The notes below the pieces were generated by a model, which made no database searches, was not told the origin of the DNA, and worked only from the letters and a program-made list of their open reading frames with translations. A stretch of 10,331 nucleotides of DNA. Origin: Methanobacteriota archaeon (GTDB lineage: Archaea > Thermoplasmatota > Poseidoniia > Poseidoniales > Poseidoniaceae). The translations under genes and the position numbers were made by a program. Positions 3,812 to 10,331 of this stretch are shown one piece after another; position 1 is the stretch's first letter; each line of letters opens with the position of its first letter. The stretch covers positions 1 through 10,331 of the forward strand of contig JAPOHM010000034.1 of NCBI GenBank assembly GCA_029979405.1, written 5' to 3'.

Positions 3812-5299
3812 TCAAAGACCGTATAATTTCGAATATTTTCCTTCGACATAATTCAGGAATGGTTCTGGACTAGGAGGAGAACCTGTCGCAGACTGAATAA
3901 GTGCAGATGGCTCCATCACTGAACCCTTTGAGTGAATGTTCTCCCTCAACCACTCGAGCATTGAACTCCAATTGCCTGATGAGATTATGTCCTCGATATC
4001 TCCTAATTCTTGTTTCATTGCCTCTAATAATTGAGCCGCGTACAAATTTCCAAGTGTGTATGTAGGGAAATAGCCAAACGCTCCCATCGACCAGTGAATG
4101 TCTTGAAGACAACCCATTGAATCGTTTGGAACCTCGATTCCAAACCAATCTTTCATCATATTATTCCACAGGTTTGGGATTTCTTCGACTGGTAGATTCT
4201 CGTTGAAAATCTTCTTTTCAATTTCATACCTGATCATAATGTGTAGATTATATGTGATTTCATCTGCTTCAACTCTGATGAAATCAGGCTTGACCTCATT
4301 TGCAATCAAGTCAAGTGTTTCATTATCCCAATCTGGGCATTCAGGGAACTCTTTCTTGAACCAAGGAAGTGCTACTTTCCAAAATGATGCCGTCCTACCG
4401 ATTTGATTTTCCCAGAACCGACTTTGTGATTCGTGGACACCTAATGAGACTGCTCCACCTGCAGGAGAAAAAGACTGTTCTGATGGTAAGCCTTGTTCAT
4501 ACAAGCCATGGCCCGATTCATGCATAACAGCATAAAGGCACGAGAATGGATCTTTCTCGTCGAATCTCGTTGTGAACCTTGTGTCTCCCGGCCACAAACC
4601 TGCACAGAATGGATGGGTTGAGATATCCATGCGTCCGGCTTCGAAATCAAAGCCCATTGCTTTGGATACTTCGTTACAGAATTTTTGTTGCTTTTTCTCA
4701 GCAAAAATCAAATTTTCAGGTAGTCTTGGAATTTCTACTCCTGATTGCATAATCTTACTTAGCAGCGGCACGAGCCTTTCCTTTAACTCAGAAAATAAGG
4801 GGTCGTAATCGCTAACCTTCATTCCAACCTCATATTCATCGAGCAACACATCATATGGTGTATCTTCACATCCCAGATACTCAATTTTCTGTCTCGTTAA
4901 TGAAATCAACTTTTCTAAATGGGAAGAAAATAGTGAGAAATCGCTTTCCTTTCGTGCCTGCTGCCAAGCGATTAACGCCTCGCTTCTTGTTTTGGTAAAC
5001 TCTGCGACGAATTCAGTTGGTATCTTTACAGCCTCGTCATATTTTCTACGCATTTCTTTGACATTTGCGGCGAGAAAGTTATCCAATTCTTCGTTTTCGA
5101 GTTGTGAGATTAACTCACCAAATTTTGGGTCAATTAATTTCTCATGGCCTTGACTTGCCAACCATGCTAAGATTTCACCGCGTGCTGCTGCACCTTTTGC
5201 TGGCATTATCGTTTCTTGGTCCCAACCAAGATGACCTTGAATCGCCTGAAATTTATACAAATCATTCACCTGAGTCATGAATTGTGCTTTTGCTTCCAT
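3812..5299 (-). CDS. M32 family metallocarboxypeptidase (carboxypeptidase Taq type)
   Basis: Zinc/cobalt-dependent cytoplasmic carboxypeptidase removing C-terminal residues from peptides. From ATG 5299 it has 495 residues, the usual M32 length, and all family motifs are present in order: GHLGWDQETIMP (22-33), HPF (229-231), DTRFTTRF (239-246), the HESGH zinc site (260-264), the HESQSRFWEN ligand motif (289-298), RVEADEITYNLHI (342-354) and GYFPTYTLGN (409-418). The frame is open for another 62 codons upstream, but that stretch is Ser-rich, unlike M32 N-termini, and lies antisense to the start of the M29-like gene. ATG 5299 places LYKFQAIQGHLGWDQ at the normal distance from the N-terminus. A GTG at 5317 is an alternative. 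Its stop abuts that of the small membrane protein, and it is divergent from the M29-like gene, so the two peptidase-like genes may share control. Confidence 0.93.
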   Translation of the reverse strand: MEAKAQFMTQVNDLYKFQAIQGHLGWDQETIMPAKGAAARGEILAWLASQGHEKLIDPKFGELISQLENEELDNFLAANVKEMRRKYDEAVKIPTEFVAEFTKTRSEALIAWQQARKESDFSLFSSHLEKLISLTRQKIEYLGCEDTPYDVLLDEYEVGMKVSDYDPLFSELKERLVPLLSKIMQSGVEIPRLPENLIFAEKKQQKFCNEVSKAMGFDFEAGRMDISTHPFCAGLWPGDTRFTTRFDEKDPFSCLYAVMHESGHGLYEQGLPSEQSFSPAGGAVSLGVHESQSRFWENQIGRTASFWKVALPWFKKEFPECPDWDNETLDLIANEVKPDFIRVEADEITYNLHIMIRYEIEKKIFNENLPVEEIPNLWNNMMKDWFGIEVPNDSMGCLQDIHWSMGAFGYFPTYTLGNLYAAQLLEAMKQELGDIEDIISSGNWSSMLEWLRENIHSKGSVMEPSALIQSATGSPPSPEPFLNYVEGKYSKLYGL

Positions 5300-5378
5300 G
5301 ATTTTCCGGAGATACACCCACTCTTCAACGTTGTTAAAAAAAGCACAAATTGAAGTTAAGGAAATCACTCGGTCTATC
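5300..5378. promoter_or_regulatory. divergent promoter region between the M32 and M29-like genes
   Basis: This 79-base gap must drive both genes outward. An A-tract (TTAAAAAAA, 5334-5342) can serve as a TATA-like element in both directions: about 37 bases from ATG 5379 on the plus strand and about 35 bases from ATG 5299 on the minus strand. Next to it is a perfect 8-bp palindrome, CAACGTTG (5326-5333), a possible operator half-site or chance. No clear Shine-Dalgarno precedes either start, which would suit very short leaders. Confidence 0.35.
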
Positions 5379-6488
5379 ATGGCCCCACCTTTTCGCCGAA
5401 AAGATGCTGAGGAAGCCATCGACGACGATTTAGAGATATCAGAAGTTGTTGAGGAGGAGGAGCCAGATGAGTTTTCCTCAACCAATGACGATTCAAATGA
5501 AATAAAAATCGAGGACCTATATCAATCAGCTAAACAAGTAACTCATACTTGCATGGACATACGAAGAGGGGAAAATGTTCTAATTGTCTGCGACCCAACA
5601 ACGGGAGAAATCGGACAAGCATTACACAAGGCTGCTACAGAGAGATCTGAAAGAGTCTTGTTAATAGTGATGCCAAAAGGTAGACATCACGGAGAGGAGC
5701 CACCTTCACCTGTTGCTAACTTGATGAGACAACAACAAATTGTAATCGCACCTACAAGATATTCCCTTACTCACACGAGAGCGATTAGGTCTGCAATCAA
5801 AGAAGGAGCAAGAGTGGCTACGATGCCCGGACTGACTAACGAGATGTTCATCAATGGTGGAATGACTGCAGATTTCAACGAAGTAAAGAAAAATTTAGCT
5901 GGTCTTTCAAGCGTATTGAGAAGGAAAAAGTTGGTACATGTGAAGGATTCAAACGGTACTGATGTTGAATTTGAGATTGTTTGGAAGGAATGGAAACTTA
6001 ATGATAACGGGATTTGTAACCGCCCACGAATGATTACTAATTTACCTGCAGGAAAGGCATTTGTTATGCCAAAAGAAGGGTCGATGAATGGAACAATTGT
6101 AATTGACGGTTCATGGGAATCTACATTGCTTGAAGAGCCACTAGAATTGACAATTGAAAACGGCATTGTCATCGATATTAAGGGTGATTCTACTGCTGCA
6201 CAAATTAGACAACAATTTGGCGAAGCCGCATCAAGATTGAGATCAAGAGACAGAGAATCGGTATGGACTGTTGCCGAATTTGGTTTCGGAATGAATCCAA
6301 TGGCAAGGCTAACTGGACACGTTCTCGAAGATGAAAAAAGACAAGGCACTTGTTATTTCTCAATTGGTGATAATACAAGCTTAGGAGGAACTGCTGCTGT
6401 CGGAATTCATATCCCAGGAGTTATCACAAAACCATCGGTTTGGTTAGATGATTCCCAAATATTGGATGAAGGAAAATTCGTTGCTTGA
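5379..6488 (+). CDS. M29-like (AmpS/aminopeptidase T family) protein, probably degenerate metal site
   Basis: 369 residues matching the COG2309/M29 metallo-aminopeptidase fold. The N-terminal domain has LYQSAKQV (47-54) and MDIRRGENVLIV (59-70). The C-terminal part has NLPAGK (221-226), EGSMNGTIVIDGS (233-245), AEFGFGMNP-ARLTG (299-313), EDEKRQGT (317-324), GDN (330-332) and HIPGVITKPSVWLD (344-357). These align with family segments normally read NLPAGE, GTxHIALGDN and HxDGV-KPTV. Three expected ligands differ: K226 for Glu, Y326 for His and P346 for Asp; E300 and H344 remain. The fold is clear but aminopeptidase activity is doubtful. An acidic extension (about 11-45, including EVVEEEEPDEF) precedes the domain. 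ATG 5379 is chosen because the 34 codons before it lie over the start of the opposite M32 gene and resemble nothing. Its stop abuts the convergent EF-hand/zinc-ribbon gene. Confidence 0.82.
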   Translation: MAPPFRRKDAEEAIDDDLEISEVVEEEEPDEFSSTNDDSNEIKIEDLYQSAKQVTHTCMDIRRGENVLIVCDPTTGEIGQALHKAATERSERVLLIVMPKGRHHGEEPPSPVANLMRQQQIVIAPTRYSLTHTRAIRSAIKEGARVATMPGLTNEMFINGGMTADFNEVKKNLAGLSSVLRRKKLVHVKDSNGTDVEFEIVWKEWKLNDNGICNRPRMITNLPAGKAFVMPKEGSMNGTIVIDGSWESTLLEEPLELTIENGIVIDIKGDSTAAQIRQQFGEAASRLRSRDRESVWTVAEFGFGMNPMARLTGHVLEDEKRQGTCYFSIGDNTSLGGTAAVGIHIPGVITKPSVWLDDSQILDEGKFVA

Positions 6489-7949
6489 TTAGCGGTTCTG
6501 AGTCCCACAAACAGGACAGAATCTCCAACTTAAATCTAGCCCAATTCTACAACCTCTACAGTGGAAACCTGTTCTTAATGTAGGTTGAATTGGTTGCATT
6601 TGGTTATTCCACTGTTGCTGCTGTTGTTGCTGATATTGCCACTGTTGCTGCTGTTGCTGCTGTTGTTGCCACTGCTGTTGTTGCTGTTGCTGTTGCCACT
6701 GCTGTTGCTGCTGTTGTTGCTGTTGCTGTTGGCCTTGTGGTTGTTGAGAAGGTTGTGCTTGGATTCCTGCTCGAATTGGCTTTACAGGCTTTGGTAAAGC
6801 CATTTTCTCGGCAACCTCTGGTCGTGATTTTAATTCTTCGAGGGTTACTTGCCCATCTCCATCGACATCTGCCTCAGAATGTAGTTTTGCAGCCTCATCT
6901 AAATCGAGACCCGTAGCGTCTGCTACCTCTTGAATAGATAATCCACCACTATTGTCAGAATCTGCGGCTTCAAATGCTTCTTTAAGTTCGTCTTTATCCT
7001 CTACTTCTGGTTCAGGTTCGGGTTCAGGTTCTAGCTCTGGCTCTGATTCAGGCTCCGGTTCGGGTTCAGGTTCCGGTTCGGGTTCAGGCTCCGGTTCGGG
7101 TTCAGGCTCCGGTTCAGGAGCCATGACGGCAAATGCTCCGGAAAACGCATCTTCTGTCTTTTCGGATTCCTTTCTATTATCCTCCACCTCTTGGACAACC
7201 TCAACTGTGGGTAGGGGGATAAATTCTTCAGCTTCAGATGTGTTTGGAAGTGGTACAGATTCTTCTTTTTCTTGTTGTACTGGAAGTGAAACTACCGCTT
7301 CAATAACTGGCTCAGGTTTTGGCTCTTTCTTTGGAGGAGAAGGTTGAGTTTCAGCGGATGGAACAGCGATTGATGCTTCAATTTCCTTCGCTTCTGCGTT
7401 AGGACTACTGAGACTGGAGATGGGTGTTACATGTCCGGCTACATCAAATGCGCCTTGGAATTCCTGAGATAATTTCAGTAACCCGTCTTTATTTCCCGAT
7501 GGGTCTGAGAGAAGGCTTTCGACTTGTTTCAGATACTTTGTAGCCTCCCCATTTCCTCCAGTCTGGTAGGCAACTGCAAACAATTTCATCAATTTCATTG
7601 GGTCTGCAATTTCTGCAAGTAATTTAGATTCATCAGCGCTGAATTTGCCTTCATCTAATTCTAACATAAGTTTTTCAGGTAAAGACATAACACCCAAATG
7701 ACCTGCAACTAAGAAGTAGATTTCTCCTCCTTCACAATTTAGTCTTTGGCTAGCTTCTTCGAAGTCAAAATCTCCGGGTTTCAAGACTAAATCTGAAAGT
7801 AGAGTGAAGAATTTTTCGAATGCATCATCCCTTGACATTTCCATCATTTGGTGCAACGCATCAGAGGATTCGAATACGCCAAAATAAGCTGCTGCCTCGT
7901 CAACTTCAATGCCCTCAGGCATTGAAACATCGGCACCATCTTCGGACAT
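6489..7949 (-). CDS. EF-hand, poly-Gln and zinc-ribbon multidomain protein
   Basis: Unrecognised 486-residue protein without signal peptide or membrane helix, so probably cytoplasmic. In order: an acidic, mainly helical domain (about 15-170); a low-complexity Pro/Glu/Ser linker (about 175-275); a Pro-Glu tract (278-318); an EF-hand pair (321-376) with canonical 12-residue loops D330-E341 (D330, D332, S334, G336, E341) and D361-E372 (D361, D363, D365, E372); a basic/proline linker (386-405); a Gln tract (407-447) with W418, W427, W437 and W447; and a C-terminal zinc ribbon C464-x2-C467-x10-C478-x2-C481. EF-hands bind calcium and ribbons bind zinc; the remaining role is unknown. AGGGGAG, 7 bases before ATG 7949, supports the start. 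It follows the surface-protein gene by 61 bases on the same strand and may be co-transcribed. It ends directly against the M29-like gene. Confidence 0.85.
   Translation of the reverse strand: MSEDGADVSMPEGIEVDEAAAYFGVFESSDALHQMMEMSRDDAFEKFFTLLSDLVLKPGDFDFEEASQRLNCEGGEIYFLVAGHLGVMSLPEKLMLELDEGKFSADESKLLAEIADPMKLMKLFAVAYQTGGNGEATKYLKQVESLLSDPSGNKDGLLKLSQEFQGAFDVAGHVTPISSLSSPNAEAKEIEASIAVPSAETQPSPPKKEPKPEPVIEAVVSLPVQQEKEESVPLPNTSEAEEFIPLPTVEVVQEVEDNRKESEKTEDAFSGAFAVMAPEPEPEPEPEPEPEPEPEPEPEPESEPELEPEPEPEPEVEDKDELKEAFEAADSDNSGGLSIQEVADATGLDLDEAAKLHSEADVDGDGQVTLEELKSRPEVAEKMALPKPVKPIRAGIQAQPSQQPQGQQQQQQQQQQQWQQQQQQQQWQQQQQQQQQWQYQQQQQQQWNNQMQPIQPTLRTGFHCRGCRIGLDLSWRFCPVCGTQNR
6609..6731 (-). repeat. 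poly-Gln tract with periodic tryptophan
   Basis: About 41 codons, nearly all CAA or CAG, broken by single TGG codons every 9-10 residues (W418, W427, W437, W447). CAA and CAG are mixed irregularly, so it is not a pure trinucleotide microsatellite. A unit of about 27-30 bases (run of Gln, then Trp) is recognisable in imperfect form, so the tract probably grew by duplicating whole Gln-Trp blocks. Confidence 0.85.
6996..7118 (-). repeat. Pro-Glu tract with 18-base tandem units
   Basis: Encodes an alternating Pro-Glu run (residues 278-318) interrupted once by SEPEL. At 7051-7104 three 18-base units stand in tandem (7051-7068, 7069-7086 and 7087-7104). The first and third are identical and the second differs by one base. 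A partial fourth follows at 7105-7119. Near-identity points to recent expansion. The peptide would be a stiff, negatively charged spacer between the N-terminal domain and the EF-hands. Confidence 0.85.
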
Positions 7950-7956
7950 TTTTTCT

Positions 7957-7963
7957 CTCCCCT
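7957..7963 (-). promoter_or_regulatory. ribosome binding site of the EF-hand/zinc-ribbon gene
   Basis: On the minus strand AGGGGAG lies 7 bases before ATG 7949, supporting that start. The rest of the 61-base gap to the upstream gene (7964-8010) shows no convincing TATA box or T-tract terminator. Read-through from the surface-protein gene is therefore plausible. Confidence 0.6.
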
Positions 7964-8010
7964 TTCGGCTCCAAATTCTTACAGTTCTTGAGTGTGATGC
8001 ATGCTCAAAC

Positions 8011-10331
8011 TTACCTCTTAGAGAGTTCTATTATCGCTCGGGATTGAGGTGCTGACCATCCTGTAGTTTGTAATTGCATCAAAATACCTCTTTCAGATTC
8101 ACCGTCTTTCAAAGCACCTTTTGTCCAACTTATAGCAGCATCTCTGTCTTGGACTTCATCAGGTCCAAACAAATCAGGATCTATTTGTACGGCTTGTTTA
8201 CCTATTGCTTTTCTTTTGGATACTTTCTTTCCTCTTGCGGGCCCTCGAGGGTCTGGCATCATCGGGCCTGAAGGAGGTCTTCCTGATGGAGCTGATGCTC
8301 CTGGTGGACCTCGAGAGGGGCCTGCTCCTGGTGGACCTCGAGAGGGGCCTGCTCCTGGTGGACCTCGAGAGGGGCCTGCTCCTGGTGGACCTCGAGTTGG
8401 GCCTGAAGCTGGTCCTCTTGCTGGAGTTGGGGATTGTCTTGTATTACCTAAGACGTTGGACATGAAGTCATCTTCATCATCATCATAAAAATCTTCATCC
8501 TCATCATCATCGTCATCAAACCAATCATCATCAGAGCCACCACGTAGTCTGGAAACAACAATTACAATCAAAATAAGGAAGAATAGTCCTCCTCCACCAG
8601 CTACAGCATAGAACATCATTGGTTCCATTCCGAACATCATCTCTGATTCTCCATCATCGTTCGATTCTACTTCCTTTCTACAACCACTTGGATAAACAGG
8701 TACTCCTGGCTCGGTATTCATACATGCGTCGATGTCGTCTGTTACCCCATCACCATCAGTATCAGATTGGTAATCTGCACAACCATAATTTGCCCTTGCT
8801 TGGGCAGTTCTATCTCCTGCTGTGCTGGTGTCTAAACACTGGTCAGGGTCTTTACCGGATTGATTATCTCCCCAACCATCAAGGTCATTGTCAGCCCACT
8901 GAGTAGGTTCTGTTGGGAATTTGTCATCTCCAATATCTCTATACCCATCACCGTCAGTGTCGACGCAACCAAACTTGCCATTCATAGTTGAATTACCATA
9001 TTCAGTAGGACAGAAATCTGGTTCGTTTCCAGTCAATCTATCTCCGTAACCGTCTCCATCCATATCTTCCCACTGAGTGGAGTCTAGTGGGAATGCATCG
9101 CCCGTGTGAGTTCCATTGTCGGCATCATAGTAGTACTGCCCCATTAGACCATCTCCGTCGAGGTCTTGCAATAATGCGCTTTCATCCAAACAACCATCAG
9201 CTAACACTGGTAATCCGGCTTCTGTATCTGGGCACAGGTCTAGATTATCGGTTACCCCATCGTTGTCTCCGTCTAACTGATTTGGAGCACAACCATTGCC
9301 GTCTATTATCAAACCAGGATCCGTACCTGGGCATGAATCATAAGGATCGTTGATGCCATCTTCATCGGAATCGACCTCTCTTTGGGATTCTGAACAACCG
9401 ATTTCATCAGCAAGTTCCGAAATTGGAGTGTTTGGACAAGAGTCTTCAGCGTTTGAAACGGAATCTGAGTCGTCATCCTTCTGATATTCAGAACATCCAA
9501 TTTCGTCTACTGAGTGGCCTAATTCTGTATCCGCACAATCATCGAAATCATCCGGTACACCGTCGTTATCTTCGTCTTCTTCTTCGCCAATAATTGGACA
9601 GCCAACACCTGGTTCACCGTTTGGTTTTGTTCCGTTGATCACTCCGAAATCGTAAGGGCATGCATCTGGATCGTTACCATTTTGATTATCGCCCCAGCCA
9701 TCACCGTCAGTATCGTCAACTTGAGTAGAGTCTACGGGGAAAGCGTCTGAACCATCTTCACGACCATCTCCATCGGTATCTATACATCCATAATATGCTA
9801 CGAAATTTCCAGAGCCATCTAATGCCGAAGTTGAATTTCCTGCAATATTTGGACAATTATCGAGATAAAGTCCAGCTCTATTTGAGCCATTTTCTAACGA
9901 GGTCCAATCATCAGGATATCCATCATTGTCCGTATCGTTGGCGGCAGACGGATTTGTTGGGAATTTGTCGGGTAAGGTAGCGTTGTCCGAGGAATTATCT
10001 CCATAGCCATCAAGGTCTGAGTCAGCCCACTGTGTAGGGTCGTTCGGCCACCAGTCAGCTCCATCTTCTTCTGTCCATTCTCTAAATGTGCCAAAGTCAG
10101 ACGGGTCTGAGGCTCCATCTCCATCGGTATCGACACAACCAAGCCTGTCTCTCCAGGAAAATCCTTGAATCCACCAGCACTTGTCACCGAATTCTAAGTC
10201 TGAATCATTGTCGCCATATCCATCTTTATCTTTATCTTCCCACTGCTTGTGGTTATATGGGAATTCGTCGGGGATAATCGAAAGTCCTGAGGTTTCGAGG
10301 TCTGTTTCACAACAATCAGGACCATGGTTGT
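8011..10331 (-). CDS. membrane-anchored surface protein with thrombospondin type 3-like calcium repeats (5' end outside window)
   Basis: The frame is open from the window edge to the TAA at 8011-8013, giving 772 residues and no start, so the true N-terminus is missing. The first ~570 residues are Asp-rich calcium-type repeats (DTDGDG, DNDGV, DLDGWGDN) of two kinds: FP-x4-TQW-x-D-x-D-DG(Y/W)GD blocks, and thrombospondin type 3-like D-x-D-x-DG-xx-D-x2-D-x-C(P) units. There are 22 cysteines in this part, mostly alternating C(P) and GC, suggesting one disulfide per repeat, and N-x-S/T sites occur. A single hydrophobic helix (nt 8551-8616; core FFLILIVIVVS) follows. The ~179-residue tail has no cysteine. 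It contains an Asp/Glu cluster (nt 8464-8532), GPPGAGPSR repeats, a Lys/Arg patch, and a final helical segment of about 50 residues. Cys distribution and basic residues after the helix suggest repeats outside and tail inside. An adhesion or structural surface role is inference. Confidence 0.85.
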   Translation of the reverse strand, partial: NHGPDCCETDLETSGLSIIPDEFPYNHKQWEDKDKDGYGDNDSDLEFGDKCWWIQGFSWRDRLGCVDTDGDGASDPSDFGTFREWTEEDGADWWPNDPTQWADSDLDGYGDNSSDNATLPDKFPTNPSAANDTDNDGYPDDWTSLENGSNRAGLYLDNCPNIAGNSTSALDGSGNFVAYYGCIDTDGDGREDGSDAFPVDSTQVDDTDGDGWGDNQNGNDPDACPYDFGVINGTKPNGEPGVGCPIIGEEEDEDNDGVPDDFDDCADTELGHSVDEIGCSEYQKDDDSDSVSNAEDSCPNTPISELADEIGCSESQREVDSDEDGINDPYDSCPGTDPGLIIDGNGCAPNQLDGDNDGVTDNLDLCPDTEAGLPVLADGCLDESALLQDLDGDGLMGQYYYDADNGTHTGDAFPLDSTQWEDMDGDGYGDRLTGNEPDFCPTEYGNSTMNGKFGCVDTDGDGYRDIGDDKFPTEPTQWADNDLDGWGDNQSGKDPDQCLDTSTAGDRTAQARANYGCADYQSDTDGDGVTDDIDACMNTEPGVPVYPSGCRKEVESNDDGESEMMFGMEPMMFYAVAGGGGLFFLILIVIVVSRLRGGSDDDWFDDDDDEDEDFYDDDEDDFMSNVLGNTRQSPTPARGPASGPTRGPPGAGPSRGPPGAGPSRGPPGAGPSRGPPGASAPSGRPPSGPMMPDPRGPARGKKVSKRKAIGKQAVQIDPDLFGPDEVQDRDAAISWTKGALKDGESERGILMQLQTTGWSAPQSRAIIELSKR
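8297..8398 (-). repeat. 27-base tandem repeat encoding GPPGAGPSR
   Basis: Three identical 27-base units (8297-8323, 8324-8350, 8351-8377) and a partial fourth that diverges from 8397. Each unit encodes nine residues, GPPGAGPSR, in the cytoplasmic tail. Perfect identity including third codon positions implies recent duplication, so copy number probably varies between strains. The glycine spacing is not a strict G-x-y collagen register. Confidence 0.92.

Follow-up and report, generated by a model that had tools for sequence, protein, structure and literature searches.

A modular EF-hand and zinc-ribbon protein encoded beside an integrin-alpha-like surface protein in Poseidoniales archaea, and its possible role as a cytosolic adaptor

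The window, the whole stretch of 10,331 nucleotides analysed here, belongs to contig JAPOHM010000034.1 of a Poseidoniaceae archaeon (assembly GCA_029979405.1). The interval of interest coincides exactly with one gene, G, which begins with ATG and encodes 486 amino acids in five successive parts: a helical N-terminal domain, an acidic Pro-Glu spacer, an EF-hand pair, a Gln/Trp tract and a zinc ribbon. It lies behind a second gene, H, which is cut by the end of the window, and converges with the flanking gene F. The features, by position, are as follows.

5277..6488 (+), gene F, an M29-like aminopeptidase (Pfam E 2e-8), the convergent flank of H-G
6489..7949 (-), gene G, 486 aa, ATG start
6492..6569 (-), C-terminal zinc ribbon CRGC-x10-CPVC, residues 461-486 of G (alignment; Pfam subthreshold)
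6588..6755 (-), Gln/Trp tract with a Trp every 9-10 residues, weakly predicted helix, residues 399-454
6771..6797 (-), basic LPKPVKPIR motif, conserved, lying between the EF pair and the tract, residues 385-393
6798..6998 (-), EF-hand pair resembling a calmodulin lobe, residues 318-384
6834..6869 (-), EF loop 2, DVDGDGQVTLEE, residues 361-372
6927..6962 (-), EF loop 1, DSDNSGGLSIQE, residues 330-341
6996..7379 (-), disordered acidic spacer with VPLP-type motifs and Pro-Glu repeats, residues 191-318
7131..7151 (-), DAFSGAF, a short motif of the spacer, residues 267-273
7380..7910 (-), N-terminal helical domain, residues 14-190 (alignment, AlphaFold)
7950..8010 (-), H-G gap of 61 bases with a GGGGAG box ahead of the G start codon
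8011..10329 (-), gene H, C-terminal 772 aa, with TSP3-like repeats, membrane span and tail
8014..8193 (-), H tail, helical and C-terminal, ILMQLQTTGWSAPQSRAII
8548..8619 (-), transmembrane segment in H, residues 571-594 of the window part (by hydropathy, span 570-599)

Neither RNA families at gathering score nor tRNAs were found within the window. On the plus strand, the long frames that face the Gln and Glu-Pro repeats (e.g. 6585-6797 and 6952-7347) were judged from their composition to be mirrored low complexity and not genes.

The modular build of G was supported by structure prediction. Residues 1-185, modelled alone with AlphaFold, gave a compact fold of ten helices (pLDDT 82, pTM 0.77), which bears out the helical N-terminal domain proposed in an earlier sequence-only reading of this DNA. 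In the full-length model, ten-residue pLDDT means were 87-98 for residues 31-190, 37-52 for the spacer (residues 191-320) and 78-93 for the EF pair (residues 321-380), while the Gln/Trp tract, partly helical, had means of 39-70 and the ribbon 76-77. The N-terminal domain had no match in Pfam, PDB sequences or a fold search, and 32 of 32 diverse members share its motif I-x-V-D-x-x-x-A-Y-F-G and E-x-G-E-x-Y box without change. G is strongly acidic, with 96 acidic versus 35 basic residues, of which the spacer (residues 191-318) holds 40 and 7, respectively. We detected no hydrophobic or membrane-like span in G (highest 19-residue hydropathy 1.13), and Pfam and NCBIfam assigned no DNA-binding family to the whole protein or its N-terminal domain, except for one isolated subthreshold HTH row.

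Two collections of homologues were used to follow these modules. A search with the N-terminal domain (residues 1-185) returned 317 proteins, the best 120 of which were surveyed together with the query as a set of 121. Separately, 186 unique N-terminal domains were gathered; 153 of these proteins carry a C-terminal zinc ribbon and are called complete here, a definition that makes conservation of the ribbon circular within the 153. The remaining 33 were set aside, some being truncated where a contig ends, others out of frame and one partly masked. Within the spacer, a motif of the form DA(F/L)xxx(F/L) was present in 135 of the 153 complete members and missing from 18, among them the clade that carries G without H. 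A looser form of the basic motif LPKPVKPIR was found in 142/153.

The EF-hand pair scored above the curated Pfam cut-offs for both EF-hand_1 (E 6.3e-10, 38.3 bits against 25.4) and EF-hand_7 (E 3.6e-8, 34.1 bits against 30). In both loops the ligand positions are filled by residues of canonical type that are conserved in the alignment. By the presence of a loop pair above the curated cut-off G is thus an EF-hand protein, and calcium binding is predicted from its ligand positions. Other known or candidate EF-hand proteins were seen in genomes of the order: an amino-acid permease (L081:22-1737, plus strand; AA_permease E 9e-37) with a C-terminal EF-hand pair (EF-hand_1 E 1e-10), long frames with an EF match near their end (L082, L083, L088) and EF-hand proteins of other build (L079:940-2175, L084:1144-1731). 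The proteins of other build suggest that EF-hands are no rarity in this group.

The tract that follows (residues 399-454) contains 42 Gln, with Trp at positions 418, 427, 437 and 447, and in composition and spacing it has the character of a prion-like segment, namely Gln/Asn-rich low complexity with spaced aromatics. Its Gln codons are mixed (23 CAA, 19 CAG) and the longest pure run is five, a mixture that speaks against recent triplet expansion. At the DNA level, both the Pro-Glu and the Gln/Trp stretches rest on degenerate tandem repeats, with 68-77% matches in that of the tract. Trp placement was surveyed in unique members that combine an EF pair with a Gln content above 20% ahead of the ribbon, 123 in all. 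From the start of the N-terminal domain to 20 residues beyond the second EF loop, Trp was absent in all 123; beyond that point, 118 of the 123 had 2-6 Trp, spaced by a median of 11, and the remaining five, without Trp there, had at least two aromatic residues. The length of the stretch between EF pair and ribbon ranged from 40 to 102 residues among members. Within the limits of shared descent, Trp placement in those 123 members appears to be a maintained pattern, and the Trp-punctuated tract of the window's clade would fit a sticker-and-spacer element. In one lineage (P0081, P0083, P0099, P0117, P0118), the tract is Asn/Gln-rich and Phe or other aromatics take the place of Trp.

At the C-terminus, the four cysteines of the ribbon (C464, C467, C478 and C481) were invariant in 29 of 29 aligned rows, which were hand-chosen from the 121 proteins and reach down to about 45-50% identity. 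The Pfam DZR model gave 13.8 bits against a cut-off of 27.3. The zinc-ribbon motif occurred in 106 of the 121 proteins, the 15 without it comprising 11 short forms and four with early or altered ends.

Exactly two EF loops together with the zinc ribbon were present in 102 of the 121 proteins. Among the other 19, four had a third, apparently chance, loop, four had the loops without the ribbon and 11 short proteins had neither. The same order of parts recurs down to about 45-50% identity, which is more than chance would give; the domain order first noticed in the single sequence is therefore real and recurs through Poseidoniales, and the claim that the combination was undescribed also held in the open-licence literature searched. 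The 11 short homologues (267-299 aa) are unlikely to be natural two-domain forms, since most of them, inspected by eye, either depart from the common frame or terminate no later than the Pro-Glu repeat; they keep the sequence upstream of the break, and the survey covered forms above the length limit of the search. In seven homologues (P0004, P0005, P0007, P0008, P0013, P0017, P0058) the frame departs shortly before the Pro-Glu repeat. Sequencing error is the likely cause because several of them sit on very long contigs, and a real hot spot is not excluded.

Homologues with a named source came from assemblies labelled Poseidoniales, Poseidoniaceae, Euryarchaeota, Methanobacteriota or Thermoplasmatota, most rows carrying no name, and one distant relative was named Thalassarchaeaceae. 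Of the 318 genomes of the order searched, 179 contained a match to a profile of the N-terminal domain. A phylum-wide draw of 389 genomes gave 76 matches, all in genomes already included in the search of the order, and the newly drawn genomes gave none.

Scoring of modules in the 153 complete members, with Gln-rich defined as more than 25% Gln over the 70 residues ahead of the ribbon, showed considerable variation. The EF pair and the Gln tract occurred together in 122 members (two of them with a third loop), the EF pair without the Gln tract in 14, the Gln tract without the EF pair in four and neither in 13; the EF pair was thus missing from 17 and the Gln-rich tract from 27. On a tree of N-terminal domains from 40 representatives, midpoint-rooted with no outgroup and with long branches (L071, P0081), EF pairs fell on both sides of the midpoint split and at one constant position, flanked by the DAF-like motif and the basic Pro-rich one, so the pair is probably ancestral and was lost more than once. 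EF pair and Gln tract together were confined to the window's side of that tree. By these counts the EF pair and the Gln/Trp tract are clade-level options and not part of the family core, which consists of the helical domain, a long disordered linker and the C-terminal zinc ribbon. A calcium switch or condensate formation, as the sequence-only reading had it, thus fails as a function of the family as a whole, because relatives with the same N-terminal domain and ribbon lack the EF-hands, the Gln tract or both. The same reading had named, as the finding that would count against it, orthologues lacking EF ligands and the Gln tract, which would mark these as strain-specific additions; such orthologues do exist, in the 13 members without both, and the difference is one between clades and not between strains.

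The neighbouring gene H was characterized from the window and from eight near-full-length relatives. The window part has 14 DxDxDG-type motifs and one membrane span. Seven of the relatives are 2,014-2,084 aa long and the eighth, which apparently has a late start, 1,896 aa. A signal-like N-terminal span was present in seven of the eight, and one further span followed by an acidic run in all eight. Near-full-length H has 20-25 DxDxDG-type motifs per protein, compared to an average of one in shuffles of one H. Full-length relatives have an N-terminal propeller of the integrin-alpha type, after which come thrombospondin-3-like repeats. The sequence-only reading, which had just the C-terminal 772 aa of H in view, missed this propeller and the unit that H forms with G. 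FG-GAP scored above the Pfam cut-off in all three H proteins searched (E 1.5e-9, 4.7e-14 and 3.6e-5), and the thrombospondin-3 match was below the cut-off in the three proteins showing it and not listed for L094.

A profile of seven H N-terminal regions matched integrin alpha-V with E 1.8e-27, and integrin alpha chains made up all 60 of the matches listed, from a total of 63. For a single H sequence, all 51 matches were integrin alpha chains (best E 7.6e-10). To our knowledge, the PDB holds few FG-GAP proteins besides integrins, so this all-integrin list partly reflects what has been solved. Thigh or calf leg domains were not found by Pfam at E 0.01 in three H proteins, nor a GFFKR-like juxtamembrane motif in the eight relatives and the window part, and H is therefore not classed as an integrin. 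The tail segment occurred once, in H, in each of 10 H-bearing genomes searched, and was not found in either of two genomes of the clade without H. Window positions 8296-8405 hold 4.1 copies of a 27-base repeat with 97% match, coding for RGPPG repeats of the H tail whose number and form vary among relatives.

H and G form a presence/absence unit at one chromosomal site, the two being mostly present or absent jointly. In all 29 near loci H lies directly upstream of G on the same strand, with a gap of 31-89 bases in 27 of them and of -11 and 229 in the other two. Among 10 divergent loci, H stood beside G in nine, with the tail matched in eight and the ectodomain only in L099. Across the 318 genomes of the order, 165 had both genes, 14 G only, 20 H only and 119 neither, where H was counted up to an E of 1e-50 (185 genomes, out of 230 with a match at 1e-5), G by its N-terminal domain (179 genomes) and at most two H candidates were scored per genome, so that single cells of this tally are uncertain. 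For instance, G253 was tallied as G only, yet H adjoins its G, and several genomes tallied as H only contain pieces of the G C-terminus, often where a contig ends. Because the genomes are related, the Fisher p (5e-49) overstates independence.

Most absences of H and G are not assembly gaps, as flank gene F was found in 30 of 40 sampled genomes with neither gene. In 18 of these 30 F-bearing genomes the empty locus was read, and in 18/18 a thiamin pyrophosphokinase gene (identified by Pfam in three examples) lies right against F, -37 to +25 bases away. In the 21 filled loci with both flanks visible, the flanks are 7.5-8.9 kb apart with H and G between them; one further locus, L018, is rearranged. 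Presence on both sides of the midpoint-rooted N-domain split points tentatively to loss of the cassette and not to gain. One clade of five genomes (G004-G008) lacks H, and G stands alone between the flanks in all three loci inspected. The two G proteins of this clade that are readable to the end keep the zinc ribbon and have little acidic excess, with no EF loops and no DAF motif. Beyond its thiamin pyrophosphokinase gene, the clade carries another protein with a TSP3-like match to H (L098:1464-3917, L166, L167), which may replace H.

We tentatively favour, at somewhat under an even chance, the reading in which G is a cytosolic adaptor or scaffold of the integrin-alpha-like surface protein H. 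It fits best because a long linker joins the two conserved ends of G, and because the companion of G is receptor-like and has a conserved tail too. The H tail would be cytosolic, the N-terminal domain or the zinc ribbon of G would bind that tail or a partner near the membrane, and the long acidic linker would allow the two ends to act at a distance. In the window's clade, the EF pair would add calcium sensing and the Trp-spaced Gln tract multivalent clustering, both being tuning devices of some clades, and H molecules might thereby be gathered or tuned from inside the cell. In favour of an adaptor are the adjacency and co-occurrence of H and G, the clean empty loci, the integrin-type propeller, the restriction of the tail segment to H and the absence of both EF pair and DAF motif from G of the H-less clade. 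Against it, adjacency is weak evidence, since synteny extends over the whole neighbourhood and F accompanies G about as constantly; the clade with G and a good ribbon but no H indicates that G has, or had, a use independent of H; several H-bearing clades carry G without EF-hands or Gln tract; and the fold of the N-terminal domain gives no functional hint.

Much the same cassette evidence would serve the nearest rival, in which G assists the making of H. As a chaperone or export tether in the cytosol, G would hold the H chain of some 2,000 aa, or the acidic tail of that chain, in a secretable state, and its ribbon would dock at the ribosome or translocon. H is giant and looks exported, and G is encoded right after it; EF-hands and a Trp-spaced Gln tract are unexpected in an export factor, however, and G survives without H in one clade, so we consider this role unlikely. 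Detaching G from H altogether makes it a free-standing, calcium-switched, condensate-forming cytosolic factor beside which H is incidental. The canonical EF loops, the mixed Gln codons and the exclusion of Trp from everything ahead of the tract (123/123), with 2-6 Trp within it (118/123), all speak for such a factor, but 17 of the 153 complete members are without the EF pair and 27 without the Gln-rich tract, and H and G mostly come and go jointly; we regard it as quite unlikely.

Ranked after the condensate-forming factor, and likewise of low probability, is a zinc-ribbon regulator that binds nucleic acid or RNA polymerase and carries disordered, acidic, activation-like segments, perhaps acting on cassette or surface genes. 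The CxxC-x10-CxxC ribbon is kept where EF pair, Gln tract or H are lost, and the long acidic and Gln-rich stretches would suit an activator, whereas the strong overall acidity of G and the lack of any DNA-binding family beyond the subthreshold HTH row in Pfam and NCBIfam do not. Finally, the Pro-Glu and Gln/Trp stretches could be neutral low-complexity drift, leaving the N-terminal domain and ribbon as the parts that matter. Their variable length (40-102 residues between EF pair and ribbon), their absence from other clades and the degenerate tandem repeats behind both point that way; the mixed Gln codons argue otherwise, as does the confinement of Trp to the tract at regular spacing in 118 of 123 members, with at least two aromatics kept in the other five, and we think drift improbable.

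Under the adaptor reading, H and G may make up a simple adhesion system. A stronger version, a prokaryotic integrin-like module in which H, as a giant calcium-rich receptor, would be coupled across the membrane to a dedicated adaptor G, with calcium sensing by the calmodulin-like lobe and receptor clustering by the Trp-spaced Gln tract in one major clade, is rather unlikely. The host archaea are common at the ocean surface, and the H-G unit is a concrete, testable candidate for coupling of a receptor to the cytoplasm in archaea, for which clades with and without H-G offer a natural comparison. The G family is also an archaeal example of an otherwise constant scaffold that has gained, or lost, a calcium-binding module and a Gln module with spaced aromatics.

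Parts of this picture touch on earlier work. Modules of protein families that occur specifically in Poseidoniaceae and Thalassarchaeaceae, carry calcium-binding domains and are suggested to act in signalling are described in the accessible portion of PMC9258230, and the G family may or may not be among them. Integrin-type propellers are reported from bacteria (PMC3192720, in the part available), and calcium blades are described for a small number of proteins from archaea (Methanosarcina, Archaeoglobus), and archaeal EF-hands as rare, in the available text of PMC3123361. Thrombospondin genes are reported to be widespread in Poseidoniales, with adhesion or aggregation proposed from gene content (PMC6461757, accessible sections), and were likewise found in these archaea with adhesion or aggregation proposed (PMC8821943, accessible sections). 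In the accessible portions of the open-licence literature on Poseidoniales or Marine Group II, we found no description of G or of the H-G pair.

Comparison with known systems places the two proteins as follows. H may be of the kind of the thrombospondins reported in Poseidoniales, from which it differs in that neither an integrin-type propeller nor a partner like G is described in the accessible parts of those reports (PMC6461757, PMC8821943). The EF pair of G (residues 318-384) resembles a calmodulin lobe with two canonical loops. The solved sequences nearest to it are mostly calmodulins (among 60 of 241 matches listed), and most of its fold matches are calmodulin or centrin lobes (Foldseek E 0.03 and weaker, probability 0.99-1.00). 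In contrast to calmodulin, G carries one lobe only, set within a largely disordered protein and absent in sister clades. H shares with integrin alpha the calcium-binding FG-GAP propeller (matches to alpha-V, alpha-5 and alpha-IIb) and the build of a single-pass surface protein, whereas thrombospondin-3-like repeats take the place of the leg domains. In animals, CIB1, paxillin and zyxin are EF-hand or zinc-finger adhesion adaptors linked to integrins. They would resemble G in being cytosolic and modular, with proline-rich linkers and a zinc-binding C-terminus or EF-hands, a likeness offered as analogy only, with no sequence relation claimed.
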